Of a DNA stretch of 64,000 nucleotides, positions 27,708 through 63,567 are shown piece by piece. Made by a program: the position numbers and the translations under genes. The notes under the pieces are model-generated. The model ran no database searches, was not told where the DNA came from, and saw only the letters and a program-made list of their open reading frames with translations. How positions within the stretch are numbered: position 1 is the first letter of the stretch; every line of letters starts with the position of its first letter. The DNA is from Tangfeifania diversioriginum (lineage in GTDB: Bacteria > Bacteroidota > Bacteroidia > Bacteroidales > Prolixibacteraceae): contig CAMCBW010000002.1 of assembly GCA_945873105.1 (NCBI GenBank), positions 62,001 through 126,000 of the forward strand, given 5' to 3'.

Positions 27708-27749
27708 ATTGGCTCTTGGCTAATCGCCAAATGCCTATAACCTCTCGCT
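27708..27749. repeat. Degenerate heptamer array, six units
   Basis: Six consecutive 7-mers: ATTGGCT, CTTGGCT, AATCGCC, AAATGCC, TATAACC, TCTCGCT. It abuts and slightly overlaps the stop codon of the transporter gene. A second six-unit heptamer array with related units lies at 31095-31136 in the same operon. Confidence 0.55.
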
Positions 27750-29466
27750 ACCAGAAGTAGATGTAGAACGCCACCGTAATGGTAAGAATAATGGCCGAAT
27801 GTATGATATCCCATTTGTTCCAACTGGCACGTGTTGCCGCTTTATCTGCCGCTGAAGCAGAGGACAATGTAATCCCCTGCAATTGCAATTTGGTGGCAGG
27901 TGCTGTATACCGGCTGACAATCATGATTACCAGCATACAGAAAACAAGCATTCCACCACTGAAGAACAACCAGTTGGTATCGTAGAAGAGATAATAGAAT
28001 AGGTTGTTGACCCCTTTTTCTGCGGCCCAAAGTTTCACATCGGTGTAGCCTGCCCCTGTAGCAGTAGTTGAATAATAGACTTTGGCACCAAGTCGCATGA
28101 TCCCAATGATAAAACCGACGATCATTCCCCACATTCCACCTTTGGGAGTCGGGCGTCTGGATAAAATTCCCAAAAGGAAGGCTGCCGCAATTCCAGGTGC
28201 CAGTACCGACTGAACGTCTTGCAGGTAAGTATAGAGTACACTGCCGATACTTTTCATGATTGGAATCCAGAGCATGCCCAGGACAACTACTACAACCGTG
28301 GCTATCCTGCCTACATGAAGTAATTTTAATTCACTGGCTTCGGGACGGTATTTTTTATAAAAATCGATGGTGAACAACATGGCCGATGAGTTGAACAGGG
28401 AGGCCAGGGAACTCATCAATGCTGCAAGGATTCCACATACGACCAATCCCTTTAAACCAGCAGGGAGCAACTTGTTTACAAGGGTCGGAAAGGCTGCATC
28501 AGATGATGATAGGGTGAATGGTTCACCATTGATAATTACTCCTTTTTGAACCATGGCAAAGGCAATCATTCCGGGGATAAGGAAGAGAAAAACAGGGGTA
28601 AGTTTCAGGTAGGCACCGAAAATCGCACCGCGTCGGGCTTCTGTTTCATTTTTGCCTGAGAGCACCCGCTGTACAATGAACTGATCTGTACACCAATACC
28701 AGAATCCTATGACCGATGATCCGATCAAAACCCCCAACCAGGGGAAATTTGGATCCCTGTTGCTCCGAATCAGGTTGGACATGGTATCACCATATGCATT
28801 CACCGTCTTGGCACTGGTGGCAGCCAGCATTTCATCCCAACCTCCTACTGCGCGAAGTCCAAGCACTACGATGATGATGGATCCCAACAGGAGAATGGGT
28901 GTTTGCAAAATCGAGGTATACAAAACTGATTTCATGCCCCCAATAACCGTATAAATAGCAGTCAGCAGGACCAATCCAATGGCCGATATCCAGAAGAAAT
29001 CAATTCCCCACATGGTTTCTATCCCGAAAACCTCCTTGAAAACCAAGCCTCCCGCATAAACCGTTACGGCCACTTTTGTTAGAACATAACTGACCAGCGA
29101 AATCATGGAAAGGATGGTTCTTGACTCAGGATTGTACCTTCGCTCCAGGAATTCCGGCATGGTTGTCACCATGCTTCTGGAATAGAAGGGAACAAATACC
29201 CAACCCAGAATCAGGATCATCCAACCCTGAATTTCCCAGTGAGCCATGGCCATACCACTTGATGCACCTGCACCAGCCAGACCGATCAGGTGTTCCGATC
29301 CAATATTTGAAGCGAATATGGAGGCTCCGATGGCGAGCCAGGTTGCATCACGACCTGCCAGGAAATAATCCCCTGAGGTTTCCTCTTTTTGTTTGAACAC
29401 CCACAAGATAATACCGATGAGCGCCAGACCAAAAAGAGCAATCACAATCCAGTCCAATAGTACCAT
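27748..29466 (-). CDS. Sodium:solute symporter (SSS family), probable L-arabinose transporter
   Basis: 572 residues, highly hydrophobic, with many membrane helices. SGLT-like features include LLDWIVIALFGLALIGI at the start, FASNIGSEHLIGLAGAGAS (sodium-site helix 1), YTVIGGMKSVLYT, and WYWCTDQFIVQRVLSGKN. It would import a sugar with sodium across the inner membrane. Between araA and araD its cargo is most simply L-arabinose, which is inference. Gaps of 79 and 72 bp to its neighbours suggest one transcript. Confidence 0.92.
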   Translation of the reverse strand: MVLLDWIVIALFGLALIGIILWVFKQKEETSGDYFLAGRDATWLAIGASIFASNIGSEHLIGLAGAGASSGMAMAHWEIQGWMILILGWVFVPFYSRSMVTTMPEFLERRYNPESRTILSMISLVSYVLTKVAVTVYAGGLVFKEVFGIETMWGIDFFWISAIGLVLLTAIYTVIGGMKSVLYTSILQTPILLLGSIIIVVLGLRAVGGWDEMLAATSAKTVNAYGDTMSNLIRSNRDPNFPWLGVLIGSSVIGFWYWCTDQFIVQRVLSGKNETEARRGAIFGAYLKLTPVFLFLIPGMIAFAMVQKGVIINGEPFTLSSSDAAFPTLVNKLLPAGLKGLVVCGILAALMSSLASLFNSSAMLFTIDFYKKYRPEASELKLLHVGRIATVVVVVLGMLWIPIMKSIGSVLYTYLQDVQSVLAPGIAAAFLLGILSRRPTPKGGMWGMIVGFIIGIMRLGAKVYYSTTATGAGYTDVKLWAAEKGVNNLFYYLFYDTNWLFFSGGMLVFCMLVIMIVSRYTAPATKLQLQGITLSSASAADKAATRASWNKWDIIHSAIILTITVAFYIYFW

Positions 29467-29545
29467 TTTTTAAGTTTAAATGTTGGTTGTTAAATTGTTA
29501 GCGAGATAATTTTTTATTTGTTAGTTATTAACTCATAACTTTGTT

Positions 29546-31057
29546 TTAGATTCCTTTGGAAAGATGATAGTACAAATCATTCCACCTGAGCTCCTTTTTG
29601 AAGTCGGAGATTTTGGTGTCATTGTTGATCAGCACATATTCGATTCCGGCCATTTCGGCAAAATCTTCCAGTACTTCGGCAGGTATAGCCTGAGAGAAGG
29701 AGGTGTGGTGGGCTCCACCAGCCAGAATCCAGGCACCGGCACCAATCTCGAGATTTGGCTTTGGAATCCACAGAGCACTCGCAACCGGAAGTTTTGGCAT
29801 GGGTGCATCCAGTGGGACTACCTCTACTTCGTTGACGATCAGCCGGTAGCGGTTACCCATGTCGACAAGGGAGGCATTAAGCGCCTGACCAGGTTTCACC
29901 GTAAATTTGGAACGAACCGGATCTGCTTTTCCTCCGATTCCCAATTTGTGTATTTCAACGCAGGGTTTTTCCTGTGCGATTGATTCGCACACTTCGAGCA
30001 TATGCGCACCCAATACCTTGGCACCACTCGGGTGGAGGTGATAGGTATAATCTTCCATGAAGGAGGTTCCTCCGGTTAATCCGGTAGCCATTACCTTCAT
30101 GGTGCGCACCATGGCAGCTGTTTTCCAGTCTCCTTCTCCTCCGAAGCCGTATCCATCCGCCATCAAACGCTGTACGGCAAATCCGGGCAGTTGTGCCAAG
30201 CCCTGCAGGTCTTCGAAAGTAGTAGTAAAGGCCATGAAGCCACCTTTGAGGAGGAAGGCCCTCATGCCTAGTTCAATTCTGGCAGATTCGCGCAGTGATT
30301 CGTGTGCTGCACCTCCTTTTTTCAGGCTATCGACCACATCGTATTTGGCTTCAATTTCGGTTACCAGACTGTCGATGGCACCCTCCGTCACTTCGTTCAC
30401 GAATTTGACCAGGTCACCCACCCCGTAACCATTGACAGAAAGGCCCAGTTGAATTTGTGCTCCAACCTTATCTCCTTCTGTTACTGCTACTTCACGCATA
30501 TTGTCACCCCAGCGGGCAACCTTCAGGTGGCGAAGCTCATTCCAGCCTGCTGCCGCCCTGGCCCAAAGACCAATTTTCTTCTGAACATTTTCTTCCTGCC
30601 AGTGGCCGACTACCACTTTTCGCTGGATGCGCAGACGACTGCCGATGAAACCGAATTCGCGGTCGCCATGGGCTGCCTGGTTCAGGTTCATGAAGTCCAT
30701 GTCAATTTCGTCCCATGGCAGATCCCGGTTAAACTGGGTATGCAGATGGATAAACGGCTTTTGCAAAGAGAGCAAACCGGCTATCCACATTTTGGCAGGA
30801 GAGAAAGTGTGCATCCAGCAGATCAGTCCGATACAGGCTGATGAGTTGTTTGCCTCCTTGCACAATTCGGTTATTTCCGCAGGGGTCTTTACCACCGGTT
30901 TAAATACGATGGTGACCGGAATATGTACCGAAATATCAAAGGCATTTGCGATGGTTGTGGAATTCAACCTTACCTGCTCCAGTGTTTTGGGACCATACAG
31001 GTGCTGGCTTCCGGTAACGAACCAGACTTCAAACTGTTTCAAGGATGTAGTGCTCAT
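29546..31057 (-). CDS. araA: L-arabinose isomerase
   Basis: 503 residues, cytoplasmic. It converts L-arabinose to L-ribulose. Recognised by the start [35 protein letters not shown], and [12 protein letters not shown], with metal-ligand region residues in [11 protein letters not shown]. Full length. First enzyme gene of the operon, with a candidate AraR operator 89 bp upstream of its start codon and a heptamer array in the leader. Confidence 0.97.
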
Positions 31058-31094
31058 GGGGTAGAATTTATTTTTAAATTTTAATGTATTATGG

Positions 31095-31136
31095 TCTTGG
31101 CTGTTTGCCTCTAGCCTTTGGCCGTTGACTGATAGC
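31095..31136. repeat. Degenerate heptamer array, six units, in araA leader
   Basis: Six consecutive 7-mers: TCTTGGC, TGTTTGC, CTCTAGC, CTTTGGC, CGTTGAC, TGATAGC. It lies between the candidate AraR operator and the araA start codon, so it would be part of the araA leader transcript. Same unit length, unit number and related sequence as the array at 27708. Confidence 0.55.
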
Positions 31137-31145
31137 TGGTTTTTT

Positions 31146-31165
31146 AAGAGTTAAAATTACTTTTA
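31146..31165. promoter_or_regulatory. Candidate AraR operator upstream of araA
   Basis: AAGAGTTAAAATTACTTTTA, an imperfect palindrome matching 16 of 20 positions with the site in front of araR (31918-31937). It is in the araR-araA gap, correctly placed to control araA and the genes after it. Confidence 0.65.
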
Positions 31166-31175
31166 ATATTGGTGT

Positions 31176-31889: not shown

Positions 31890-31908
31890 GTTGTTTGGTT
31901 GTTCCCTG

Positions 31909-31937
31909 CAAACTTATAAAAGTATTAATTACTTTTA
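31909..31937 (-). promoter_or_regulatory. araR promoter box with overlapping AraR operator
   Basis: On the minus strand TAAGTTTG (31909-31916) matches the Bacteroidota -7 consensus TAnnTTTG, 20 bp before the araR ATG. Directly upstream is the near-perfect palindrome AAAAGTATTAATTACTTTTA (31918-31937). A repressor bound there would cover the promoter spacer, indicating autorepression. Confidence 0.7.
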
Positions 31938-32065
31938 ATACCGGAAGGTCAATTTTTTTTAGATTCCTGCTGAAGAACATTTTTACAGTGGTGATTTGGA
32001 TGAAGAGGTCCACAGGGCAACTGAGCAATAGTCGTCGAAAACACTCCATACTAATCATGTAAAGC

Positions 32066-32103
32066 AAAAAGGAGCCACAATTTTTACATTGTGACTCCTT
32101 TTT
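32066..32103 (-). terminator. Intrinsic terminator of the TIM-barrel gene
   Basis: The stem AAAAAGGAGCCACAAT (32066-32081) pairs with ATTGTGACTCCTTTTT (32088-32103) with one mismatch and a 6-nt loop, followed by a U-run in the minus-strand RNA. It begins 28 bp after the stop of the gene at 32131. The symmetry could also stop plus-strand transcription. Confidence 0.85.
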
Positions 32104-32130
32104 ACTTGGAAACCCAATTACTTTGGCAGG

Positions 32131-32967: not shown

Positions 32968-32999
32968 TTGCTTGAAATTTACATTTAGTTTGAATCGTC

Positions 33000-33809: not shown

Positions 33810-33816
33810 TTAAGAA

Positions 33817-34024
33817 GTGCCTAGAGTGCCTAGAGTGAACTAAAGTGCCTAAAGTACTTAAGACAAAAGAATTCATTGGATGAAAGCATCTTTCGGTAGT
33901 TCCAAAATACTTTAGGCACTCTAGGCACTTTAGTTCACTTTAGGCACTTTTAAATGGGTTCAGCTTTTCGCAGTCCCCAAATACTTTAGGCACTCTAGGC
34001 ACTTTAGTTCACTCTAGGCACTTC
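33817..34024. repeat. Three copies of a nonamer-based repeat, one inverted
   Basis: Copy 1 (33817-33862) is built of 9-10-mers such as GTGCCTAGA, GTGCCTAAA and GTGAACTAAA. Copies 2 (33906-33950) and 3 (33980-34024) are nearly identical to each other and are the reverse complement of copy 1 (TTTAGGCACTCTAGGCACTT). In RNA, copy 1 can pair with either copy 2 or copy 3 but not both. The array fills the gap between the sigma and fecR genes. Confidence 0.75.
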
Positions 34025-35309: not shown

Positions 35310-35384
35310 CACCACATCCGGCACACTTTTTTGGTCGAAAGTGTTTCGGTTTCATTAGTATTAACTAAAAAACATGTCAAATCT

Positions 35385-49664: not shown

Positions 49665-49698
49665 CACCAAAGCACTAAAGCACAAAGATTTCACGAAG
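49665..49698 (+). repeat. CACNAAAG octamers plus TTTCACGAAG
   Basis: CACCAAAG, CACTAAAG, CACAAAGA followed by TTTCACGAAG. It lies just beyond the 3' end of the DUF5686 gene. A sister copy in the same orientation is at 52494-52520 on the other side of that gene. Confidence 0.6.
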
Positions 49699-52493: not shown

Positions 52494-52520
52494 CCGCAAA
52501 GTCACAAAGGTTTCACGAAG
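52494..52520 (+). repeat. CCGCAAAG/TCACAAAG octamers plus TTTCACGAAG
   Basis: Two octamers, CCGCAAAG and TCACAAAG, then GTTTCACGAAG. It shares the TTTCACGAAG end with the element at 49665 and has the same orientation. It lies in the promoter-containing gap between the divergent DUF5686 and hsdM genes. Confidence 0.55.
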
Positions 52521-52611
52521 AAAATTATAAATTTTAACCAGTCTCATGGTTGGATCCAATTTTTTGAACTAATCCAGCTATCTTCGTAGACTCAGAAAAA
52601 CCCGACGCTAA

Positions 52612-54156
52612 ATGATCACAGGTGAACTCAAATCGCAGATAGACAAGATATGGACCGACTTCTGGACGGGCGGCATTGCCAACCCGCTCACGGTCATCGA
52701 ACAGTTTACCTACCTGCTCTTTATCCGCAGGCTCGACGAAATCCAGCTTACGAAGGAGAAACAGGCACACCTGGTAGGAATCGCCATCAAGGATCCGGTC
52801 TATTCCGAGGAGGAGAAACCCCTGCGCTGGAGCAGTTTCCGCAACAACGACCCGGAGACCATGTACCGGCTGTTTCAGAAGGAAAACGGCGTATTCGACT
52901 TCATGAAGAATGTGGGGGCCAAAGGCTCCATCTTCGCCGGATTTATGAAGGGAGCCACCTTTATGATCCCCACGCCGCGCCTGTTGGACATGGTGGTGCA
53001 GCAGATTGATAAAATAAAAATGGAGGACCGCGACACCAAGGGCGACCTTTACGAATACCTCCTCTCCAAAATCGCCACCTCAGGCACCAACGGACAGTTC
53101 CGCACCCCCCGCCACATCATCAAAATGATGGTCGAGCTGGTGAAACCGCAGAAGGACGACACCATCTGCGACCCTGCCTGCGGAACGGCCGGCTTTTTGG
53201 TAGCTGCCGGCGAATATTTCCACCAATACCATCCCGGTTGGTTCATGGAATCCGCTTTTCGCGACCATTACAATACCAAAATGTTTACGGGCGCCGAGTT
53301 CGACGCCACCATGATGCGCATCGCCGCCATGAACCTGCAGTTGCACGGCATCGAGCATCCCAACCTGGTGAGCAAGGATGCGCTCAGCGAATCGAACATC
53401 GGCATGACCGACCAGTTCTCACTGATACTGGCCAATCCACCCTTCAAGGGAAGCCTCGACTACGACTCCGTCGAGAGCGGGATCCTGAAACGGGTAAAGA
53501 CCAAGAAGACCGAACTGCTCTTCCTCGGACTGATCCTCCGCGCCCTGAAAACCGGAGGCCGCTGTGCTGTGATTGTGCCCGACGGCGTGATGTTCGGCTC
53601 CTCGAACGCCCACCAACAGATCCGGCAGGAGCTGGTCGAGAACCAGCGGCTGCAGGCGGTGATTTCGATGCCCAGCGGGGTGTTCAAACCCTATGCGGGG
53701 GTGAGTACCGCCATTCTGCTCTTCACCAAGACCAACTCGGGCGGCACCGACCGGGTGTGGTTTTACGACATGCAAGCCGATGGCTTCTCGCTCGACGATA
53801 AAAGGAACCCGGTGGCTGCGAATGATATTCCCGATATCATTGAACGATGGCACGCTTTTGAGCAAGACTTGGGGACTAAGGGACTGGGAGACTTGGGGAC
53901 TAAGGGACTTGGGGACTTGGAGACGGAGGGACGGAAGGATGAAGGCATGAATAAGCGGACGGAGCGGTCGTTTGTGGTGCCGTTTGCGGAGATCAAGGCC
54001 AATGGCTGGGACCTGAGCATCAACCGCTACAAGGAGGTAGAACACCTGGAGGTGGCGTACGATTCGCCGGCAGCGATCTTGCAGGAGATCCGCCTGCTCG
54101 ACGCCGAACGAGCCGAGGCATTGAAAAAATTGGAGGAGATGCTGGGATGGCAATAG
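52612..54156 (+). CDS. hsdM: Type I restriction-modification DNA methyltransferase
   Basis: 514 residues. Helical N-terminal domain (KIWTDFWTGGIANPLTVIEQ), then an N6-adenine methyltransferase domain with the SAM-binding DPACGTAGFLVAAG (from D187) and the catalytic NPPF (275-278). C-terminal helix for subunit contact. Residues of about 420-441 are low-complexity (DLGTKGLG repeated twice, then DLETEG) and come from an octamer array not usual in HsdM. GC content is clearly higher than in neighbouring genes, suggesting acquisition. Overlaps hsdS by 10 bp. Confidence 0.95.
   Translation: MITGELKSQIDKIWTDFWTGGIANPLTVIEQFTYLLFIRRLDEIQLTKEKQAHLVGIAIKDPVYSEEEKPLRWSSFRNNDPETMYRLFQKENGVFDFMKNVGAKGSIFAGFMKGATFMIPTPRLLDMVVQQIDKIKMEDRDTKGDLYEYLLSKIATSGTNGQFRTPRHIIKMMVELVKPQKDDTICDPACGTAGFLVAAGEYFHQYHPGWFMESAFRDHYNTKMFTGAEFDATMMRIAAMNLQLHGIEHPNLVSKDALSESNIGMTDQFSLILANPPFKGSLDYDSVESGILKRVKTKKTELLFLGLILRALKTGGRCAVIVPDGVMFGSSNAHQQIRQELVENQRLQAVISMPSGVFKPYAGVSTAILLFTKTNSGGTDRVWFYDMQADGFSLDDKRNPVAANDIPDIIERWHAFEQDLGTKGLGDLGTKGLGDLETEGRKDEGMNKRTERSFVVPFAEIKANGWDLSINRYKEVEHLEVAYDSPAAILQEIRLLDAERAEALKKLEEMLGWQ
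53871..53934 (+). repeat. Octamer array inside hsdM
   Basis: Eight 8-mers in a row: GGGGACTA, AGGGACTG, GGAGACTT, GGGGACTA, AGGGACTT, GGGGACTT, GGAGACGG, AGGGACGG. Three units make 24 bp, seen in the protein as an 8-residue repeat. The general form RGRRACNN is shared with the array at 63486. Confidence 0.8.
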
Positions 54157-55286
54157 AACTAAAAACGCTTGGGGATTGTATGACCCTAATAAATGGGAGA
54201 GCTTACCTTCAACCAGAACTTCTTGATAGTGGTACACCTGTATTGCGAATCCAAAATTTAAACGGAGGGGATAGATGGTATTATTCAAATCTTACTCTTC
54301 CTGAGAATAAATATTGTGAAAATGGAGATTTACTATTTGCATGGTCTGCCACTTTTGGTCCCTATAATTACAGCGGACCAAAATCGATCTATCACTATCA
54401 TATTTGGAAGGTTTTACCAAAGAAAAATGTAACAGATAGGGGATATGCATATTATGTATTAATGCACATTACACAAAAAGTTAAGGATGAAGCACATGGA
54501 ATATCAATGCTTCACATAACTAAATCTGGAATGGAAGCCCTCCAAATCCCCCTTCCCCCACTCACCACCCAAAAGCGCATTGCCGCCATTTTGGATGCCG
54601 CCGATCTGTACCGGCAAACTACCAAAGCCCTGGTAGCGAAGTACGACCAGCTGGCGCAGTCGCTGTTTTTGGAGATGTTTGGGGACCCGGTGAATAACCA
54701 GAATAATTGGGAAATAAAGAAGTTTTCTGACGTGGGTAAACTGGATAGAGGAAAATCAAAACATCGTCCAAGAAATGCTCCGGAATTGTTGGGTGGAAAA
54801 TATCCATTAATTCAAACTGGAGATGTAGCCAATAGTGAAGGATACATAACTACCTTTAAATCTACATATTCTGACTTTGGTCTCAAGCAGAGTAAAATAT
54901 GGAAAGCAGGCACTTTATGCATTACAATAGCAGCAAACATAGCGAAGACGGGAATACTTACTTTTGATGCTTGCTTCCCAGATAGTGTTGTCGGTTTTAT
55001 TCCAAACGCGAGAACCAATGCGGAATTTGTTCAACATTGGATGTCTTTTTTACAAAAAATCCTCGAAGATTCAGCACCTGAGTCAGCACAGAAAAACATC
55101 AACTTGGAAATTTTAAGAAACCTTGATATCATTGTGCCACCAGAAACTCTTCAATCTCAATTCTCAGATAGAATAAATATTATTTTGCAGCAGAAGCATC
55201 AAGCCCTTGCCGTCCTCCAAAAATCCGAAACCCTGTTTAACAGCCTGTTGCAAAAGGCGTTCAAAGGGGAGTTGGTGGCAGAATAG
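54147..55286 (+). CDS. hsdS: Type I restriction-modification specificity subunit
   Basis: 379 residues. Two target-recognition domains (about 1-135 and 190-345), each followed by a conserved helix (LTTQKRIAAILDAADLYRQT and QQKHQALAVLQKSETLFNSL), the usual HsdS arrangement. The recognition-domain DNA is AT-rich, while the central conserved segment (about 54540-54700) and the 3' end are GC-rich like hsdM, indicating exchanged recognition domains. ATG overlaps the hsdM stop region by 10 bp. It sets the DNA sequence recognised by the HsdM and HsdR subunits. Confidence 0.93.
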   Translation: MAIELKTLGDCMTLINGRAYLQPELLDSGTPVLRIQNLNGGDRWYYSNLTLPENKYCENGDLLFAWSATFGPYNYSGPKSIYHYHIWKVLPKKNVTDRGYAYYVLMHITQKVKDEAHGISMLHITKSGMEALQIPLPPLTTQKRIAAILDAADLYRQTTKALVAKYDQLAQSLFLEMFGDPVNNQNNWEIKKFSDVGKLDRGKSKHRPRNAPELLGGKYPLIQTGDVANSEGYITTFKSTYSDFGLKQSKIWKAGTLCITIAANIAKTGILTFDACFPDSVVGFIPNARTNAEFVQHWMSFLQKILEDSAPESAQKNINLEILRNLDIIVPPETLQSQFSDRINIILQQKHQALAVLQKSETLFNSLLQKAFKGELVAE

Positions 55287-55290
55287 CGCG

Positions 55291-55568
55291 AGCCCTGAAA
55301 GGGTCTCTCCTTCAGCTTTCAAGCCCTGAAAGGGCGTCAGCCCCATCACAGGGCACCGCCCTGTGATGGGGGCGTGCGTACCACGACTTTCGAGCCCTGA
55401 AGGGGCGTGAGCTGACGCCCTTTCAGGGCTGGCACCCGGCGAGAGCGGAGGAGGGGCTAGAACACAGGGCTTCGCCCTGCGTAGAGGCTGACGCCCTTTC
55501 AGGGCTCGAAAGTAAAAACTGGAACCTTTTCAGGGCTGTAAAGTAGGAGCTGGCGCCCTTTCAGGGCT
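55291..55568. repeat. REP-like palindrome array beside an IS200-like transposase
   Basis: Seven copies of AGCCCTGAAAGGGCG or variants. Plus-oriented copies are at 55291, 55322 and 55393; inverted copies (CGCCCTTTCAGGGCT) are at 55416, 55492, 55525 (shortened) and 55554. Between them are hairpins ATCACAGGGC-acc-GCCCTGTGAT (55345-55367) and a similar CAGGGCttcGCCCTG near 55465. Left copies face right and right copies face left. The array directly abuts the transposase gene. Confidence 0.85.
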
Positions 55569-55576
55569 CACTTTGC

Positions 55577-56029
55577 TTAGTCCCAGACGTAGCGTTCGTC
55601 GTAATCGATCTCGTACAGCTTGAGGAAGCCCCTGAATTCGTCCTGAAAGGTGTCTTTGGTGTGGTGCTCCTCCTGGATGTCGATGTAGCGAACTACATCA
55701 TTCACCCCTTTCGGACTGACGGAAAATGCGCCGTAGCCATCCTGCCAATAGAAATTAGAGTAGCGCGGATGAACGGTTTTTATCCACAAGGAGGAATGCG
55801 TCTTAACCTCCTCCAGCAATTTTGCCTGGGTTATTTTCCGCGACAGGAGGCAGAGGATGTGCACATGGTCCAGATGGCCTCCCACCCGGATGGGCGTGCA
55901 TTCGAGTCCACGGCAGGTGCCACCCAGGTAATCAAACAACCGGTTTTTGATGGTATGATCAATCATTGGCCGACGGTGCTTCGTGCTAAAAACGAGGTGG
56001 ACATAGACTTTGGAAAGGGATTGTGGCAT
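55577..56029 (-). CDS. IS200-like Y1 (RAYT-type) transposase
   Basis: 150 residues, full length for the family. The HUH motif is H55-V-H57 (GGHLDHVHILCLL) and the catalytic tyrosine is probably Y115 in RYIDIQEEHHTKDTFQDEF. It is single-copy with no orfB, and flanked by REP-like palindromes rather than insertion-sequence ends, which is the arrangement of REP-associated tyrosine transposases. It would cut and join single-stranded DNA at the palindromes. Separated from the PIN gene by 144 bp in which I see nothing else. Confidence 0.9.
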   Translation of the reverse strand: MPQSLSKVYVHLVFSTKHRRPMIDHTIKNRLFDYLGGTCRGLECTPIRVGGHLDHVHILCLLSRKITQAKLLEEVKTHSSLWIKTVHPRYSNFYWQDGYGAFSVSPKGVNDVVRYIDIQEEHHTKDTFQDEFRGFLKLYEIDYDERYVWD

Positions 56030-56173
56030 GATAGTGCGGTTCTTTTCTACAAGTTACCGCAAAAAACTGACAAAAACGAATGCAGATCAGACTTGGCAAA
56101 TCGGAAATCATTCTTTAATCAATGAGTAAAGATTCTTAACTTTCCGTTGTAAACAGCAATTGGAGTGGAATTT

Positions 56174-56722
56174 CTAATAAAGCAATTTTTCTTGCTTAAA
56201 ATGTCTTCTGATGTGCTCTTCCAAAGAGTGGCAACACAGATAGCTCTTTTGATTCAAAATCAAATTAACGCAAGCTTCAACCTCTTTCGACGTCATTTTC
56301 CCTCTGTCAACGGCTACAGCGAAAAGATCCATCGTTGTTAAATAGGCGATGCTATTGGCTTCGCAAAACGGAACAATATCCCTGGTATTGCTACTTGCTA
56401 TAATTTGTTTGAAGTGTTTACAATAGAGCAGGCTTGCTCTCTCCCCAGCCCCTTCGATCTCATATTTCAATCTGACAAATTCCTGTAAAAGAGAAGGAAT
56501 GCTGATGGTAGGAAATTTAATTTCTTCGACATGTTTGAAAACAAAAAGGCTTTCCACTATTTTATTGACGGTCCTGTTGTTCAGCAATTCGGCTAGAACG
56601 ATATCCAGCATCCTCAATCTGCCGGCATATAATTCGTGTAGCAAGCTAATTCTTTCAGCCTTAAACAGATGAATGACAACATCCGCATCCAAAAGAATCA
56701 AGACTTTCTCACTCTGTATCAT
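56174..56722 (-). CDS. PIN-like domain protein, last gene of XRE/ImmA/PIN cassette
   Basis: 182 residues. The start VLILLDADVVIHLFKAERI with D12 and D14, a central acidic GAGERASLLYCK, and a late TTMDLFAVAVDRGK fit the spaced acidic residues of PIN-type RNases, although the similarity is distant. Its ATG overlaps the end of the ImmA/IrrE-like gene by 14 bp. By analogy with toxin-antitoxin modules of this gene order it may be the effector; that is inference. Confidence 0.65.
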   Translation of the reverse strand: MIQSEKVLILLDADVVIHLFKAERISLLHELYAGRLRMLDIVLAELLNNRTVNKIVESLFVFKHVEEIKFPTISIPSLLQEFVRLKYEIEGAGERASLLYCKHFKQIIASSNTRDIVPFCEANSIAYLTTMDLFAVAVDRGKMTSKEVEACVNLILNQKSYLCCHSLEEHIRRHFKQEKLLY

Positions 56723-57464
56723 TTTCTACCGGGGCAAAAGGATCAAGATGGATGGCGTTGAGTAATTCCATGTAATGAGATTCCGAGATTATTTCGTCCT
56801 TAAACAACTTGTCAACACGTGTTGCATAATCTCCGATCACTTTATCCGCATTTCCAGGTTTGTATAAATGATCATCGTAACCCAACCTTAAAGCTGTGCC
56901 AATTTTACCACTACTGAATTTGTCAAAGTAGGACTTGTCTACATATTCGAGTTCGCACAAACGATATATGACGGCATTGACCGATAATCCATAATATTGC
57001 TGGATCCTGAAGAGGGTTTCGGTGCTAATCTGATTTTTACTTTTCTTCTCCAAGTCAGGGATTAGCTGAACAATTCCATTCTCGGGCATCAACAAACATG
57101 CTGCAAAAAAGTCGGCTCTCTTCTCCTCCGGGTCTTCCTGTTTGTCAAAAAGTCCGGTATTGCATTTTTGGGAGGTGAAATTTTCCTGGCAAAACAGATG
57201 ATAGATCTCATGTCCAATGGTAAAATGTTGTTTGCCTATACTATGGTTTTGATTGACCAATATAAAATTAAAGTTTCCGTCGGCTTTGATGGCCATCCCT
57301 CCAAATTTGTCCGATAAGGGTTTAAATAGCGTAATTATATTGGATTTTAGTAAGAAACTGTTCAGCTGGATAGGATCAGTTGGTCCAAAACCATTCCGAC
57401 TCCTGAAGGTTGAAGCCTTTTCTCCAATCTCAAACCAAAGCAAACTATTTTTTCTCATTGGCAA
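56709..57464 (-). CDS. ImmA/IrrE-family metallo-endopeptidase
   Basis: 251 residues. Zinc motif HEIYH (H85-E86-H89 within HFTIGHEIYHLFCQE) and a downstream ligand region EEKRADFFAACLLMP, both typical of COG2856 proteases. Such proteases often cut a partner XRE-type repressor in response to stress or DNA damage. Overlaps the XRE gene by 20 bp upstream and the PIN gene by 14 bp downstream, a tightly coupled operon. Confidence 0.9.
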   Translation of the reverse strand: MPMRKNSLLWFEIGEKASTFRSRNGFGPTDPIQLNSFLLKSNIITLFKPLSDKFGGMAIKADGNFNFILVNQNHSIGKQHFTIGHEIYHLFCQENFTSQKCNTGLFDKQEDPEEKRADFFAACLLMPENGIVQLIPDLEKKSKNQISTETLFRIQQYYGLSVNAVIYRLCELEYVDKSYFDKFSSGKIGTALRLGYDDHLYKPGNADKVIGDYATRVDKLFKDEIISESHYMELLNAIHLDPFAPVENDTE

Positions 57465-57792
57465 TCCGAACTATCTTGATATAGTTTTTAACAACCTTTT
57501 GGAACGAAGCAATACCTTTTATGTCTTGTTCTTCCAACCCCTCACTTCGAAAAGCAAAGGCCAGATTTGCTTCTTTATGGAGCCTGTCCGGCTCAATCAA
57601 ATCGTCAATTTCTATGCCGAAAAGATCAGCAAGCCTGGTCAGATTGAGCAGGGAAATCTCCCTCTCCGCGGATTCATATTTGCTTAGCGTAGTTCTGTCA
57701 ATCTCTAAATATTTCGCAATATGATCCTGTGAGTAACCGAATTTTTGGCGATAACTCTTGATGTTATTGCCAACAATAGCTGCAAATTCCAT
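57445..57792 (-). CDS. XRE-family helix-turn-helix regulator
   Basis: 115 residues. HTH_3 domain at about 7-62 (IKSYRQKFGYSQDHIAKYLE and LSKYESAEREISLLNLTRLA), with a C-terminal tail that may be the cleavage or interaction segment for the ImmA/IrrE partner. First gene of the three-gene cassette and most likely its autorepressor, given direct repeats at its promoter. Confidence 0.92.
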   Translation of the reverse strand: MEFAAIVGNNIKSYRQKFGYSQDHIAKYLEIDRTTLSKYESAEREISLLNLTRLADLFGIEIDDLIEPDRLHKEANLAFAFRSEGLEEQDIKGIASFQKVVKNYIKIVRIANEKK

Positions 57793-57825
57793 AATTCTTT
57801 CGTTTTCCTTCTTTCGTTTCTGTCA

Positions 57826-57860
57826 CAAATGTATGAATATTTTAATAATCTGAATATTTT
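57826..57860 (-). promoter_or_regulatory. Promoter and candidate operator of the XRE cassette
   Basis: On the minus strand TACATTTG (57826-57833) fits the TAnnTTTG promoter box, 33 bp before the XRE start. Immediately upstream, two exact copies of AAAATATTCA (57834-57843 and 57851-57860, plus-strand TGAATATTTT) lie 17 bp apart, a plausible repressor-binding pair. The DNA from here to 58070 is very AT-rich with no gene. Confidence 0.6.
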
Positions 57861-58072
57861 GTGATTTTCAAATTACCAGCAATAAACGACTACTTCGAAG
57901 AGATAAATATTATTAAATATATTAAATTCAATAGTTTAATTTAAATATTAGTACAGTTATTGTCAGATTCCGTTTATGTAAATATAGATTAATATTGTCA
58001 CATAATCAAATTATATTCAATTAATTTTCTGTTTCTGATCAATTATTTTATATATCCTGCATTCATTAATCC

Positions 58073-58220
58073 AGCCCCAACGGGGCGTCAGCATTTCAGC
58101 ACGACACAGCCTCCAGGTTACTTCTTCCCAGCCCTGAAGGGGCGTCAGCATTTCAGCACGGCACAGCCAGGAGGTACTTCTTTCCAGCCCTGAAAGGGCG
58201 TCAGCTCCTCCACAGGGTGA
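58073..58220 (+). repeat. Second REP-like array, before hsdR
   Basis: Three same-orientation copies at about 57-bp spacing: AGCCCCAACGGGGCG (58073), AGCCCTGAAGGGGCG (58130) and AGCCCTGAAAGGGCG (58186). Each is followed by GTCAGC and, in the first two, TTTCAGCACG; the last is followed by a CACAGGGtgaaGCCCTGTG hairpin. The core matches the array at 55291, so the two arrays bracket the transposase and the XRE/ImmA/PIN cassette. Confidence 0.85.
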
Positions 58221-58313
58221 AGCCCTGTGAAAGATCCCAAAAAATCCCTTGCATATCCCATAATTCCTCCTTAACTTCATCCGCCTTAACTACTTGACCT
58301 GCCGGATGAACTT

Positions 58314-61300
58314 ATGAGCAACTTTTCTTTCCTTCAAAAAGAATTTCCTGACCTGTTCGCCGAAGCCACGGAGGCCGAAAAACATACCCTTTCCAATCCG
58401 AAAATTGGGGCTTTTCTCTGTCGAAGCGTGCTGGAAATTTCGGTCAATTGGCTGTACGACAATGACTCAGAACTAACACTTCCCTACGACAAAACCCTTG
58501 CTTCACTCATCCATGATCAGGATTTTCGCGAACTGATTGGTCCGCGCATGTTTCAGGAGATCAATGTCATCCGGCTAACCGGCAACAAGGCTGCGCATGA
58601 GAAGAGGGTGAGCAGGCAGGAGTCGCTGGTCTCGCTGAAGTGCCTGTTCCGCTTCCTCTCTTTCCTGAGCCAATGCTACAGCGAGGAGAATCCGGTGATT
58701 CAGGCTTTCAATGAGAACCTAATCCCGGTAGGTGACGAGAAAGAGAAAGGGTTGCAGGAGCTGAGGAGTAAAATTGATGAGCTGGCTGCCCAGACAGTGG
58801 CCCTGCAACAGGAGCGCTTACGGACTGCCGAACTGGCCAGCAACAACGAATTGCTGCAAAGGCGACTGGAACATGAAAAGGAAGAGCTATCACTTCGTAA
58901 AAATGTGCGGCTTCAGACAGGTGACCTGAATAAATCGATACCTGAATTGATTCCTGAGTCAGTAACCCGAAAAATATACATTGACACCCTCCTGGCGGAA
59001 GCCGGTTGGGAAGTTTTGCGCATGGGGCGCGAACTGGAATTTGAAGTATCCGGAATGCCCGAATCGACCAACCCTACCGGGATTGGCTTCATCGATTATG
59101 TTCTTTGGGGCAACAATGGTTTGCCCCTTGCAGTCATCGAAGCCAAGAAAACGAGCGTCGATGCCCACAAGGGAAGACACCAGGCCGAGCTCTATGCCAA
59201 TTGCCTCGAAAAGAGCACCGGACAGCGGCCAGTCATCTTTTACACCAACGGTTACGAGACGCATATCTGGGACGATACCTTTTATACAGAGCGGGAAGTG
59301 GCAGGATTCTACACCAAAGATGAGCTTCAATTGCTGGTAGACCGCAGGAAATCGAGGAACGATCTGCGAAAATTCAGGGTGGATACCCAAATTGTCGAGC
59401 GCCCCTATCAGCTGGAGGCGATCCAAAGGGTCGCGGAGGCTTTGGTGACCACGAGCTATCATCAATTGAGGGGAAGAAGCCGAAAAGCCTTGCTGGTGAT
59501 GGCCACCGGAAGCGGTAAGACAAGGGTTTCGGCAGCCCTGGTGGATATGCTGACCAAATGCAACTGGGTCAAGCGGGTGCTTTTCCTGGCCGACCGGAAT
59601 GCTTTGGTTACCCAGGCAAAGAATGCCTTCAAGGAGCATCTGCCCAATCTGTCGGCCATCGACCTGACCAGGGAGAAAGAGGACAACGGCACCCGGCTGG
59701 TCTTTTCGACCTATCCGACAATCATGAACAAGATTGACAGCTTAAAGACGGAAAAGGGCCGGTTTTATGGTCCTGGCCATTTCGACCTGATCATCATCGA
59801 CGAGGCACACAGGTCGGTATACCAGAAATACAAGGCCATCTTCGATTATTTCGATGCCTTGCTGGTAGGTTTAACTGCCACCCCAAAGACAGAGGTCGAT
59901 CACAACACCTACGGATTGTTTGAGATCGAAGACAACAATCCCACTTTTGCCTATGAATTGGACCAGGCAGTTCAGGATGAATACCTTGTTCCACCAAAGG
60001 CATATTCTGTGCCGATCAAGTTTCCACGGGAGGGGGTTCGGTATGCAGATCTATCCGAAGTCGAAAAAGCCGAATACGAAGAGAAATTTGGCGACCCAAC
60101 CACGGGTGAAGTTGCTGAGGAGATTGAGAGCAATGCGCTCAACAATTGGCTTTTCAACTCCGACACCGTCGACAAGGTGCTCGATTTCCTGATGACCAAA
60201 GGGTTGAAGACAGCGGGTGGGGACAAGCTGGGCAAGAGCATCATCTTTGCCCGTAACCACAACCATGCCATTTTCATTGAGAAGAGGTTCAATAAAAATT
60301 ATCCCGAATACGCTGGTAAATTCCTGCGGGTAATCGACAACTACGAAACCAAAGCCCAGAGTTTACTGGAGGTTTTCTGTTTAAAAGACCAGGAGGCAGA
60401 TCCGCAGATAGCCGTTTCTGTGGACATGATGGATACAGGGGTAGATGCTCCAAGGGTGGTCAATCTTGTATTTTTCAAGCCAGTTAAGTCAGTTGCCAAA
60501 TTCTGGCAGATGATTGGCCGGGGAACGCGGCTGTGCAAAAATCTGTTTGCTCCCGGCGAGGATAAAAAGTATTTCCTCTTACTTGATTTCTGTGAGAATT
60601 TTGAATATTTCAATGCATTTCCGGAAGGGATCGTTCCAACGGTTCCAAAATCACTTTCTCAGCAACTCTTCGAAACAAAACTTGAAATTGCGGTTCAGCT
60701 GAGATCCAATCCTGAATCGACAGAAGAGGATCAGCTACTTGCTGCCCTGTACGTGGATGAATTGCACCACTTGATCGCAACGCTGGATCAACAGCGCTTT
60801 GTCGTCAGAAAAGAGCTAAGGCTGGTAAACACGTTCACCGGTAGGGAGAGATGGGAAAACCTCAGCATGGGTGATAAAGTTGATATTTGCAACCATCTCT
60901 CAAAGCTCCCGGCGCAAAACGAGAATGAGGATGAATTGGCCAAAAGGTTCGATTTGATTGTGTTGAATCTGCAATTGGCCCTTTTGTTGAGCGACCCCAA
61001 ACAGGTTAGTTTGATCCGGCGGATAGCCAAAGTTGGAAAACTGCTTCAAAAGAAAAAGAATATTCCGGCGATACACCAACAGATCGAGACGATAAAGACT
61101 GTCCAGACAGATGAATTCTGGCCGGATGTTACGCTCAAACAACTGGAAAAAGTGCGCTGCGATTTGCGCGAGCTGATCAAATTCATCGATACGGAAGAGA
61201 AAAAGAACGTTTATACCCATTTTGAGGATGAGCTTATTGAAAGTCAAACAAAGGAAGTACCACTACTTCCTTCCTATACCAGTCTGAAAAGCTACCGCGA

Positions 61301-61757
61301 ACGCGTGGAGAGCTTTATCCGGCACAACAAGGATTTTCTGGTTATCCACAAGATTCAGAACAATATACAGATTACATACGAAGAGTTGAACCTGCTGGAG
61401 AAGCTGCTTTTTGACGGTAGTCTGGGCACCTACGAGGACTACCGGAGAGAATACGGTGAAATGCCACTGGTACAATTCATCCGGAGCCTGCTGGGATTAG
61501 AGAAGGCGGCTGTCAATCAACTTTTTTCTGAATTTATCCAATCCGGCAACCTGTCGGCCGATCAAATAACCTTTGTCAATACCATGATCAGTTACCTCAC
61601 CCAAAACGGTACCATTGACAAAGCTATTTTGTTTGAACCACCCTTTACCGAAATCAACGACCAGGGAATTACCGGGGTCTTTGACGAGGTGATGGTAGGA
61701 AAAATCATCCGGATCATTGATGAGGTAAATAACAACGCTTTGAAGAATATGGGATGA
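58314..61757 (+). CDS. hsdR: Type I restriction endonuclease, motor/nuclease subunit
   Basis: 1147 residues. DUF4145-like N-terminal region (about 1-130), coiled coil (about 140-200), nuclease domain with the PD-(D/E)xK residues D261 (FIDYVLW) and E276/K278 (VIEAKKT), then a superfamily 2 helicase with Walker A MATGSGKTR (K402) and DEAH (496-499), helicase motif VI near MIGRGTRLCKN, and an EcoEI-type C-terminal region. All key residues are present. It is separated from hsdM-hsdS by about 3 kb of foreign-looking DNA, so it must use its own promoter. Confidence 0.96.
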   Translation: MSNFSFLQKEFPDLFAEATEAEKHTLSNPKIGAFLCRSVLEISVNWLYDNDSELTLPYDKTLASLIHDQDFRELIGPRMFQEINVIRLTGNKAAHEKRVSRQESLVSLKCLFRFLSFLSQCYSEENPVIQAFNENLIPVGDEKEKGLQELRSKIDELAAQTVALQQERLRTAELASNNELLQRRLEHEKEELSLRKNVRLQTGDLNKSIPELIPESVTRKIYIDTLLAEAGWEVLRMGRELEFEVSGMPESTNPTGIGFIDYVLWGNNGLPLAVIEAKKTSVDAHKGRHQAELYANCLEKSTGQRPVIFYTNGYETHIWDDTFYTEREVAGFYTKDELQLLVDRRKSRNDLRKFRVDTQIVERPYQLEAIQRVAEALVTTSYHQLRGRSRKALLVMATGSGKTRVSAALVDMLTKCNWVKRVLFLADRNALVTQAKNAFKEHLPNLSAIDLTREKEDNGTRLVFSTYPTIMNKIDSLKTEKGRFYGPGHFDLIIIDEAHRSVYQKYKAIFDYFDALLVGLTATPKTEVDHNTYGLFEIEDNNPTFAYELDQAVQDEYLVPPKAYSVPIKFPREGVRYADLSEVEKAEYEEKFGDPTTGEVAEEIESNALNNWLFNSDTVDKVLDFLMTKGLKTAGGDKLGKSIIFARNHNHAIFIEKRFNKNYPEYAGKFLRVIDNYETKAQSLLEVFCLKDQEADPQIAVSVDMMDTGVDAPRVVNLVFFKPVKSVAKFWQMIGRGTRLCKNLFAPGEDKKYFLLLDFCENFEYFNAFPEGIVPTVPKSLSQQLFETKLEIAVQLRSNPESTEEDQLLAALYVDELHHLIATLDQQRFVVRKELRLVNTFTGRERWENLSMGDKVDICNHLSKLPAQNENEDELAKRFDLIVLNLQLALLLSDPKQVSLIRRIAKVGKLLQKKKNIPAIHQQIETIKTVQTDEFWPDVTLKQLEKVRCDLRELIKFIDTEEKKNVYTHFEDELIESQTKEVPLLPSYTSLKSYRERVESFIRHNKDFLVIHKIQNNIQITYEELNLLEKLLFDGSLGTYEDYRREYGEMPLVQFIRSLLGLEKAAVNQLFSEFIQSGNLSADQITFVNTMISYLTQNGTIDKAILFEPPFTEINDQGITGVFDEVMVGKIIRIIDEVNNNALKNMG

Positions 61758-61880
61758 ATGTATTTTCTTTTGGTTGATCATCTTGCAAGGAATCCTGCCA
61801 AGCACTTTAAAAAAGCTGCTTCTTGAAATCTCAGACCACTCCTTCAGTAAAACAAACGCATCTTTTGTTTTTTGAAAGTG

Positions 61881-62042
61881 AGTTCTCATTTTTACCTCAG
61901 TAGTTATCATTTAGACCCTGTTAATTCTCATTTTTACCTCAGTAGTTCTCATTTAGATCCCGTTAATTCTCATTTATACCTCGTTAATTCTCATTTTTTA
62001 TTCAGCGGTTATCATTTTCTGTTCAGTAGTTCTCATTTTGCC
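61881..62042 (+). repeat. 21-bp tandem array, about 7.7 units
   Basis: Units start every 21 bp from 61881 to 62028. Each begins with a form of AGTTCTCATTT or AATTCTCATTT (TTATCATTT in units 2 and 7) and has a variable second half such as TTACCTCAGT, AGACCCTGTT or AGATCCCGTT. Units 1/3 and 2/4 are most alike, giving a 42-bp higher order. Two helical turns per unit give it an iteron-like look. It lies between hsdR and the PL22-like gene. Confidence 0.85.
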
Positions 62043-62070
62043 CCCAATCTGTTAGTATCCAAAAAACTGC

Positions 62071-62078
62071 TATTTTTG
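62071..62078 (+). promoter_or_regulatory. TAnnTTTG promoter box of the PL22-like gene
   Basis: TATTTTTG, 24 bp before the ATG at 62103 and 29 bp after the end of the 21-bp array. No good -33 element at the usual distance was found. Confidence 0.45.
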
Positions 62079-62102
62079 AGATTCATCCTTCCAACTCATC
62101 CC

Positions 62103-63458
62103 ATGAAGAAAAATTCAATGGTTCTCCTTTTGTTCGCCGCATTTGCATCCCTTTGGCTGCAGGAGCCAGCCCAGGCCCAGATTGGCCGTCGTTTCCCCTC
62201 CGAAAAGAAGGTGGTCACTGATCCGGTTACCGGCACCAAACTCACCTTTCTCACCAGCACCCCTGCCGGCGACAGCAAGATATACCAGACCCACAACCAA
62301 TGGACCGCTGATGGGAAATGGGTCATCTTCAGATCCGACAGGGTCAAAGGGGAAGCCTTTGCGGTCCATGAGAAATCCGGAATAATCGTTCAGGTTACCG
62401 AAGGAGGCTACACCGGAATGCTGAATGTGGCCCGGAAATCGATGAAACTCTATTTCATGCGGAAAAGCAGCAGCGAATCAGCTACCAATTCCCTGCAGAT
62501 TGTGGAGGTCGATCTTGCAAAACTCTTTGCCGACAGCCAGGCTGGAGCCTTAAAAGAGCATTCCGCTTACCAGCGGATCTGCGGAACAACCCCTCCGGCA
62601 CTGGAGGCTGGGGGCGATATGGCATTGGATGGGGGAGAGGAGTGGGCCTGGTTCCGCGTAGGGAAGGGTGAAGCCATGATGCATCTTCCCGAAGGAACAA
62701 AAATTGAAGAGGCTTTTGGCCCCCGGAAGATGGGTGCCGGACCTGCCGGAATTGCCGGGATGAATGTACTTACAGGAGAGGTTAAGTACGTCGTCTCCGT
62801 ACCGTTCCAGATAGGCCACATACAGAGCAATCCATGGGTGCCGGGACAGGTAGTATTCTGCTGGGAGACAGGCGGCAAGGCTCCGCAACGTACCTGGATC
62901 GTAAATGCAGACGGCTCGGGTTTACGTCCGCTTTACCCCGAAGCTCCCTATGAGTGGATTACCCATGAAGCAGTGTTTAGCCCAAACGAAGTTGCCTTTG
63001 CCATCATGGGGCACCGGAAAATTCCAAACACTAACGGGGAGGCAAAAGCGGGTACCGCGGTCGGAGGAGCCAATCCCGGTCAGGAAGCAGCCTGGGGACC
63101 ATCGGGTACCCGGGAAAAACCAACAGGGCTCGGTATCGTCAACATCGATACCAGGGAGATGACCATCGCCGGTCAGATACCTTCCGGAAGCGGATTCTGG
63201 CATGTCAACGGATCCTCCGATGGACGCTTTGTGGCAGGAGATGATTTCGACCGCAACATCTACCTGATCGACCGCAAGTCTCACGAAATGATCCTGCTCT
63301 CGGCCGGTCACAAAACCACCGCTGCCGACCACCCGCATCCAACCTTCAGCCCCGATGGTACGCGGATCGAAATCCAGTCGGCGATGTTGTCAGTCGACAA
63401 CAAATCAATGAACATTTGCATCATCCCGGTACCGAAAAAGTGGCTGGCAAAAAGATAA
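62103..63458 (+). CDS. PL22-like (oligogalacturonate lyase-type) secreted beta-propeller
   Basis: 451 residues from the ATG at 62103, which begins a clear signal peptide (MKKNSMVLLLFAAFASLWLQ ... AQA). A longer frame back to 61872 only translates the 21-bp repeats. The body is a seven-bladed TolB/WD40-like propeller with the features of the PL22 family: HNQWTADGKWVIFRSD, IGHIQSNPWVPGQVVFCWET and HPHPTFSPDGTRI. PL22 enzymes split unsaturated pectic digalacturonate, but related propellers have unknown roles. No neighbouring pectin genes. Confidence 0.72.
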   Translation: MKKNSMVLLLFAAFASLWLQEPAQAQIGRRFPSEKKVVTDPVTGTKLTFLTSTPAGDSKIYQTHNQWTADGKWVIFRSDRVKGEAFAVHEKSGIIVQVTEGGYTGMLNVARKSMKLYFMRKSSSESATNSLQIVEVDLAKLFADSQAGALKEHSAYQRICGTTPPALEAGGDMALDGGEEWAWFRVGKGEAMMHLPEGTKIEEAFGPRKMGAGPAGIAGMNVLTGEVKYVVSVPFQIGHIQSNPWVPGQVVFCWETGGKAPQRTWIVNADGSGLRPLYPEAPYEWITHEAVFSPNEVAFAIMGHRKIPNTNGEAKAGTAVGGANPGQEAAWGPSGTREKPTGLGIVNIDTREMTIAGQIPSGSGFWHVNGSSDGRFVAGDDFDRNIYLIDRKSHEMILLSAGHKTTAADHPHPTFSPDGTRIEIQSAMLSVDNKSMNICIIPVPKKWLAKR

Positions 63459-63485
63459 CTGATCAATCTTGCTGACTAACGACTA

Positions 63486-63567
63486 AGAAACAGAGAAACA
63501 GAGAAACGGGGAAACGGGGAAACAGAGACTGCCCAATGCCCTCTGCCCCATGCCCTCTGCCCCATGC
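63486..63567 (+). repeat. Octamer array followed by a 14-bp repeat
   Basis: AGAAACAG, AGAAACAG, AGAAACGG, GGAAACGG, GGAAACAG, then AGACTG. This is followed by CCCAATGCCCTCTG, CCCCATGCCCTCTG and CCCCATGC. It fills nearly all of the gap between the convergent PL22-like and relA/spoT-family genes. Confidence 0.8.

Follow-up and report, generated by a model that had tools for sequence, protein, structure and literature searches.

We analyzed a 64,000-nucleotide window of the genome of Tangfeifania diversioriginum (G000:C2:62001-126000; genome 5.36 Mb in 99 contigs), in which degenerate tandem arrays with periods of 7, 8, 9 and 14 bp lie between genes and, in one case, inside a gene. These short-period arrays are not independent microsatellites. 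Probably they are terminal repeats of small elements built on a gene for the 23S rRNA intervening-sequence protein (IVP; Pfam PF05635, 23S_rRNA_IVP, S23p), or what is left of such elements as solo arrays and hairpins. A complete element would measure about 0.5-0.6 kb and contain one PF05635 gene between two inverted 7-, 8- or 9-bp arrays. We observed that arrays are associated with IVP genes, that they are arranged in inverted symmetry around them, that their period goes with the IVP clade, that their units share an AG core, and that orthologous gaps are found in full, decayed, re-occupied and empty states. No statement of the link between IVP and arrays was met in searches of open-licence PubMed Central.

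PF05635 matches were present in 232 of 296 Bacteroidota genomes (comparison genomes were taken at one per species). Within the window's family 53 of 60 genomes had one; the 14 control genomes had none. The genome of the window gave seven matches, six of them above the Pfam cut-off. All six genes above the cut-off had inverted arrays on both sides, with a unit and a period particular to each gene: AAATGTGA and GACAATTC (8 bp), AGTGCCTAG (9 bp), and ATTTTCG, TAAAGGC and AAGGATA (7 bp each).

To describe the flanks more widely, we collected high-scoring IVP loci: 30 from a phylum search, 40 hand-picked from places found in that search, 30 from a family search and the seven of the window's genome. 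A set of 77 loci combined the seven with 70 of the phylum search; autocorrelation of their 154 flanks was best at lag 7 in 99, at lag 8 in 22, at lag 14 in 14 and at lag 9 in 4. In the gene bodies of the same loci the best lags were spread over 4-15, with lag 7 in 5 of 77. A second, named set, consisting of the best 80 of at least 582 relatives, gave lag 7 in 78 of 160 flanks, lag 8 in 33, lag 14 in 27 and lag 9 in 2; its gene bodies gave lag 7 in 6 of 80, yet lag 8 in 17 of 80. The control consisted of the 294 flanks of 147 other genes, where lag 7 was best in 40. A level of 18 of 28 positions at lags 7-9 was reached by 150 of 214 IVP flanks and by 15 of 294 control flanks.

The two flanks of a locus were also compared with each other. 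The upstream flank resembled the reverse complement of the downstream flank above the 95% level of swapped flanks at 55 of 77 loci. The same level was exceeded at 8 loci when the flank was read backwards and at 11 in direct orientation. In the second set, 46 of 78 loci exceeded the level, against 5 backwards. Control genes exceeded it in 8 of 147 cases, and in 6 backwards.

Array period follows the IVP clade. The period was identical in both arms at 54 of 58 loci. On a tree of 88 of the 107 proteins (made by a quick method from few columns; the others were excluded for an unclear period, an unknown residue or a stop), period changed 8 times, compared with a mean of 19.3 for shuffled periods, and none of 200 shuffles was as low. 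One clade (Shimodaira-Hasegawa-like approximate likelihood ratio test support 99) consisted of octamer members in 13 of its 14 rows, which came from four host families and included some near-copies. Six more octamer members stood elsewhere on the tree.

Of 150 arrays flanking IVP genes, 106 repeated the dinucleotide AG at a single phase in 80% or more of their units; 52 did so with GT, the next dinucleotide. In the second set, 67 of 108 arrays did so with AG and 40 with GT, again the next. AG lay on the strand of the gene upstream and on the opposite strand downstream. When the longest run of AG at an exact spacing of 7, 8 or 9 was counted in 371 flanks of 187 loci, with no array threshold, it was five in 124 flanks, four in 43 and six in 41; no run reached five in the 294 control flanks. 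The peak at five among runs above three appeared in both data sets, in both arms and at periods 7 and 8, and survived dereplication at 65% protein identity (five in 52 flanks, four in 23 and six in 16; 88 loci).

The number five is also the number of subunits of the protein. The PDB entries 2gsc (XCC0516 of Xanthomonas, an IVP relative) and 2rld contain five chains each, and the Xanthomonas S23p is described as a homopentameric ring in the available text of PMC4990558. The peak of five AG sites in the 371 flanks thus equals the subunit number of a pentamer. Because AG runs peak at five and the IVP ring is pentameric, we infer that the protein, a homopentameric ring of four-helix bundles, would read an array with one AG per subunit, much as NAG triplets are read by the trp RNA-binding attenuation protein (TRAP). 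Each subunit of the TRAP ring reads one of a series of AG-containing triplets at regular spacing. TRAP differs from IVP in having eleven subunits, a shorter spacing and an unrelated fold, and for IVP the reading itself is a proposal. The arms would then be the sites or structures by which the element and its gene-less deletion derivatives spread or are tolerated at gene ends, and the arrays may afterwards lengthen and drift through slippage.

We next describe how common the arrays are. Over 459,370 bp sampled from the genome, Tandem Repeats Finder (TRF; scores 30 and 50 were used as cut-offs, and genes were predicted with a greedy open reading frame rule of at least 80 aa) called 58 intergenic arrays at a score of at least 50, of which 51 had a period of 7, 8, 9, 14, 16 or 18. 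Five dinucleotide shuffles of the sample gave, when pooled, 5 intergenic arrays with periods of 18, 19 and 23 and none of 7-9. An excess over shuffled DNA was among the tests that the first-pass annotation, made from the letters of the window alone, had set. Inside predicted genes of the same sample there were 11 arrays, and 9 in the five shuffles. A preference for gene ends, which it had asked about, was borne out too: among gaps of at least 40 bp, arrays were held by 11 of 35 convergent, 20 of 135 tandem and 4 of 45 divergent ones.

The annotation had called the arrays unrelated in sequence. Their units do differ, but some belong to high-copy families. The 9-bp pattern of the array at 33815 matched the genome 92 times forward and 75 times in reverse with up to 3 mismatches, and never backwards; many of these matches formed pairs of opposite arms with about 70-150 bp between them. 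The GAAAC octamer pattern had 86 and 37 (overlapping) matches in the same genome, again none backwards, and one of its arrays had about 30 units. An inverted partner within 300 bp was found for 35 of the 51 intergenic short-period arrays, and in the backwards control for 0 of 51. The 9-bp family formed 20 distinct hairpins of about 95-170 bp, several with a common loop core. Four matched units were found in 31 of their 40 arms, and the pattern implies five AG sites. In a cleaned comparison of the arms of these 20 hairpins, rare units were common to the two arms, and stood at mirrored positions, at rates above chance; 35 and 26 of 5000 permutations, respectively, were as high. Such sharing of rare units fits pairing or arm-to-arm correction.

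Orthologous gaps were compared among eight congeneric genomes (G000, which is that of the window, and G296-G302). Array families and empty gaps were assigned by eye in the gap and locus comparisons, and the IVP genes of G299 and G301 were verified by profile search. In the gap between araD and the SSF symporter gene, G301 has a complete IVP gene between TTAGCTA arrays (Pfam and profile match), G298 has a solo TTAGCTA array and G300 a remnant. Hairpins of the CACAAAGG type occupy the gap in G297, G302 and G299, the gap of G296 is empty, and the window's genome has a decayed palindrome. In the next gap, SSF/araA, an IVP gene lies between TTAGCTA arrays in G299 (profile match 115.8 bits); in G301 the arrays remain and the gene is decayed; G298, G300 and G302 have hairpins with other units, and G297 is empty with 19 bp. 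Absence of arrays from orthologous gaps, for which the annotation had asked, was therefore seen in some of them, as in these two empty gaps. Conversely, the gap at C2:128989-129061 is empty in the window's genome and holds a 9-bp hairpin in G298 and a degenerate hairpin in G300. In 60 orthologous gap pairs between the window's genome and a relative, arrays were in both in 4, only in the window's genome in 4, only in the relative in 7 and in neither in 45. In a different genus, the gap that precedes a thiolase gene is occupied by an IVP gene in 7 of 8 genomes (Pfam matches) and is empty in the eighth.

Gene-less copies share their terminal inverted repeats with complete elements, as miniature inverted-repeat transposable elements (MITEs) do. 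This was seen where a complete element and a solo array occur at one gap, and between the 9-bp hairpins and the IVP gene L033 of the window's genome. At two loci, L022 and L023, differing families adjoin: a 9-bp arm is followed by CCGTTTCT, and L022 has TAAGTCCC-type octamers in addition. These loci look as if one gap collects several elements. At L173 and L178, arrays seem by eye to overlap the stop codon of the gene before them and the start codon of the gene after them.

The arrays of the window are listed in Table 1. Each was compared with 1000 dinucleotide shuffles of its region, using a 21-position window at lags 7-9; the 21-bp array at 61881 was left out of this test.

Table 1. Tandem arrays and hairpin arms of the window, with the number of shuffles that scored equally well
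Feature	Coordinates	Strand	Scores and remarks	Shuffles equally good (of 1000)
Decayed heptamer hairpin, araD/SSF-symporter gap (27676-27747)	27700-27745	.	fold z -5.6; no TRF call at score 30	17 (at 27708)
Degenerate relic, SSF/araA gap	29467-29545	.	by eye	
Degenerate heptamer array, araA/NUDIX gap; IVP family not assigned	31095-31143	.	no TRF call at score 30; fold z -0.6, no better than shuffles	81
9-bp array, forward arm of hairpin, AGTGCCTAG family	33815-33855	+	TRF 52; five AG sites by eye	16 (at 33817)
9-bp array, reverse arm of hairpin	33909-33950	-	TRF 61	
Extra 9-bp reverse arm	33983-34023	-	TRF 66	
Degenerate CACAAAG-type octamer array	49665-49697	+	TRF 31 (at 49668)	45
CACAAAGG-type stretch	52494-52521	+	no TRF call at score 30	236; not significant alone
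GACTTGGG octamer array, in frame within hsdM (52612-54156)	53866-53932	+	periods 8/24 bp; TRF 101	0 (at 53871)
21-bp array, TTCTCATTT.. unit, gap from hsdR to next gene	61881-62045		periods 21/42 bp; TRF up to 179	
AGAAACAG octamer array	63486-63528	+	period 8 bp; TRF 58	0
CTGCCCC/ATGCCCT heptamer array	63529-63567	+	14-bp period; TRF 71	0 (at 63532)

Five of the nine arrays of the first-pass annotation reached a TRF score of 50. The one at 49668 was weak, and those at 27708, 31095 and 52494 were not called even at 30. The shuffle comparison was strong for 53871, 63486 and 63532, moderate for 33817 and 27708, weak for 49665 and 31095, and gave nothing for 52494; 31095 and 52494 thus do not stand alone. 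For 27708, with its fold z of -5.6, a decayed palindrome is the better description. The two inverted 9-bp arrays at 33909-33950 and 33983-34023 had been absent from the annotation. With the forward arm, the first of them makes a hairpin (33812-33952) with a folding energy of -61.1 kcal/mol (z -9.2), and the corresponding gap of G302 has a single hairpin. The araA/NUDIX gap around 31095 holds heptamer arrays with other units in G301 and G302, and is array-free in G299, where it measures 62 bp.

Four of the eight short-period arrays of the window share their units with the ends of IVP genes in the same or a congeneric genome. The AGTGCCTAG family of 33815 also flanks L033. A unit of the GACTTGGG kind, by eye, flanks the IVP genes L337 and L339 of G302. 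GGCATGG/CAGGGGG heptamers, by eye like those of the CTGCCCC/ATGCCCT array, flank the IVP gene L341 of G302. Inverted GAAAC arrays of the AGAAACAG family enclose an IVP gene on G299:C99. A fifth, 27708, is linked through its gap. The arrays at 49665 and 52494 were placed only by resemblance to the CACAAAGG type, which occurs beside or before the IVP genes L134, L284 and L296 of other genomes; AAAGGCAC-type arrays flank L134 and L284 and lie upstream of L296. The 21-bp array was considered as a family member and set aside, its pattern being found at only one place in the genome; IS21-type terminal repeats were considered as a possible source of it. A scan of the window with Rfam gave no match, rRNA included.

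The octamer array inside hsdM, whose product matches N6_Mtase, is missing at that place from the homolog of G311, which is 72% identical and has another insert, of about 30 residues, roughly 15 residues upstream of that place. In this homolog (L300, G311:C3:392-1951) the in-frame insert contains a CTCCCCTTCAGGGGAG palindrome in the same linker. Since L300 carries a different insert there, the HsdM linker tolerates several kinds of small insert.

The hsdM gene belongs to a type I restriction-modification locus (52612-61757) with the order hsdM-hsdS-(Y1_Tnp, open reading frame, IrrE-like peptidase, helix-turn-helix gene)-hsdR, so that the locus is interrupted by other, partly mobile-looking genes. 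The Y1_Tnp gene (55577-56029, minus strand) is part of a four-gene stretch bracketed by GCCCTGAAAGGGCGTCAGC-type palindromes (55270-55570 and 58071-58205). The palindromes near Y1_Tnp, GCCCTGAAAGGGC, are unlike the short-period arrays. The Y1_Tnp gene and its palindromes look like a system of repetitive extragenic palindromic sequences and a REP-associated tyrosine transposase (REP/RAYT) adjoining the restriction locus.

Array-flanked IVP genes were also seen in assemblies labelled as other groups: Nitrospirae (L284), KSB1 (L296), Clostridia (L280), Lambdaproteobacteria (L226), Anaerolineales (L275) and Gottesmanbacteria (L291). They could be explained by transfer or by binning error.

Several results weigh against arrays as ends and remnants of IVP elements. 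The seventh match of the window's genome, L037, which is below the Pfam cut-off, has no arrays. Among IVP flanks, 64 of 214 stayed below the array level of 18 of 28, 22 of 77 loci missed the inverted-flank threshold, and AG runs were three or fewer in 144 of 371 flanks. The AG rule fails in part of a divergent clade of the window's own genome, with the units ATTTTCG, GACAATTC and AAATGTGA. A first test of arm-arm similarity, with duplicated hairpins included, was not significant (152 of 2000 permutations as high), and the result of the cleaned test is modest. We tried to judge recent transposition by near-identical IVP copies, and there were none among the 24 of 34 matches compared in two genomes, where the best pair had 85% identity. 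Target duplications were sought by eye, and the flanks of the gaps were too diverged to resolve any. Finally, dense arrays were confined to the genus of the window among the sampled genomes: its own genome and three sampled congeners had 5-15 arrays per 100 kb, and in 200-kb samples two members of the family with 8 and 5 IVP matches had 0 arrays and two IVP-less ones had 0.5 per 100 kb. In 40-kb samples, the number of gaps with 20 of 28 positions at lag 7 or 8 was 0, 0, 0 and 0 in four IVP-less genomes and 0, 0, 0, 3 and 1 in five IVP-rich ones. These sampled densities mean that amplification does not track IVP number, and we dropped the idea that array density goes with IVP number because neither sample size gave a clear correlation.

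The association of arrays with IVP genes could also arise without movement. IVP may be a resident regulator that binds RNA as TRAP does and acts on its own mRNA and on neighbouring genes; the arrays would be its binding sites, and their units would be inherited vertically or gene-converted and stay in place. The leader of the IVP gene does contain the upstream arrays, whose inner edge is at a median of 42 bp from the Pfam match; a run of five AG fits a ring; and seven of eight genomes in one genus keep an IVP gene at the same gap. However, the downstream array is inverted, so that the mRNA has CT there, the same gap in close relatives holds different families or is empty, and there are 167 9-bp and 123 GAAAC pattern matches, yet six IVP genes above the cut-off. 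We regard a purely resident regulator as unlikely. It also seems improbable to us that the gene-less hairpins are MITE- or REPIN-like (REPINs being REP sequences paired as hairpins) and moved in trans by an unrelated transposase such as Y1/RAYT, with the IVP genes as passengers. A Y1_Tnp gene with palindromes of its own is present in the window, and the size of the 20 9-bp hairpins and the loop core common to several of them would suit such an origin, but the palindromes beside Y1_Tnp differ from the arrays in sequence and plan, period follows the IVP protein tree, and four families of the window match the ends of IVP genes.

The first-pass annotation had favoured a common process, slippage followed by mutation or templated synthesis, over a mobile element. 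A single process is upheld by our results, but mobile elements are not excluded, given the 35 of 51 inverted partners, the arrays at IVP ends and the gap states. Slippage may lengthen arrays later, as in the GAAAC array of about 30 units, and leaves the inverted pairs, the link with the gene, the AG spacing and the clade-specific period unexplained. That the arrays are independent microsatellites, grown by slippage and selected or tolerated at gene ends, would agree with some of them being long and nearly perfect; we rejected it as very improbable, since it is contradicted by the inverted pairing (backwards control 0) and the IVP link, and the high-copy families, the AG spacing and the shuffles also speak against it. 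We give hardly any credence to templated synthesis in which a reverse transcriptase has IVP as a partner like Avd of diversity-generating retroelements (DGRs). The available text of PMC10053308 describes PF05635 as a homologue of DGR Avd, and RVT_1 matches were found in 11 of 20 relatives searched, but the array-rich genome of the window has 0 RVT_1 matches, and on this ground the templating was rejected.

The proposed IVP elements resemble several known systems without coinciding with any of them. The closest is the intervening sequence (IVS) in the 23S rRNA gene of Coxiella burnetii, which the available text of PMC4990558 calls a 428-nt selfish element with an S23p open reading frame; it is excised by RNase III, tandem GACAGAT heptamers stand before the S23p frame in 2 or 3 copies depending on the strain, and IVS mobility had been proposed earlier. 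The same text gives no known function for S23p. As far as that text describes it, this IVS has in common with the elements of the window the protein family, inverted ends and tandem AG-containing heptamers. Six genes of the window's genome above the cut-off supply the S23p/IVP frame, and complementary, stem-forming ends were found at 55 of 77 loci and in the window hairpin with z -9.2. In contrast to the IVS, the elements here lie between protein genes, come in many families of unit and period and have gene-less derivatives. Location in 23S was not found: Rfam gave no match in the window, and the gap elements lie between protein genes, the remaining IVP loci being outside the rRNA scan. Because those examined in gaps lie outside 23S rRNA, we do not file the elements as IVSs.

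In REP/REPIN-RAYT systems, short palindromic repeats with gene-less copies form a family tied to a cognate protein gene. Gene-less derivatives linked to a cognate gene are the likeness of IVP elements to these systems and to MITEs; in contrast, IVP is no Y1 transposase but a ring for which no nuclease activity is known, and the repeats are 7-9 bp arrays instead of single palindromes. A Y1 gene flanked by the same repeat was not found at 55577-56029, other Y1 genes of the genome not having been sought. With DGRs the comparison fails at the reverse transcriptase, as the window's genome has no RVT_1 match; template and variable repeats were not sought there. Heptamer arrays have been described as intergenic in Beggiatoaceae, in Cyanobacteria (short tandemly repeated repetitive sequences, STRR) and in Xanthomonas, with no mechanism given in the available text of PMC4679880 and PMC4692102. 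No link with IVP was seen in the available text of PMC4692102 or PMC4679880, and the words 'four helix' occur 0 times in the main text of each; one likeness is that Xanthomonas has an IVP relative, XCC0516 (2gsc). For Flavobacterium columnare, 'four helix bundle protein' genes are listed in PMC5524665, and repeats are not commented on in its available text.

Beyond the window, a wider proposal seems to us a real but tentative possibility: that IVP elements are an unrecognised and very widespread selfish class for which no transposase is known, with a pentameric ring that counts five AG at a clade-specific spacing of 7, 8 or 9 nt in inverted terminal arrays, that rRNA IVSs are members that landed in 23S genes, and that a large part of the heptamer-repeat DNA still unexplained in bacteria is their debris. 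If this is true, a large class of bacterial short tandem repeats would be explained, the intervening sequences of rRNA would be tied to a general class of elements, and IVP would be a second, unrelated ring protein that counts repeats. The arrays give the PF05635 family, which has been without a function, a concrete prediction: five AGs at a spacing of 7 nt (or 8 nt).

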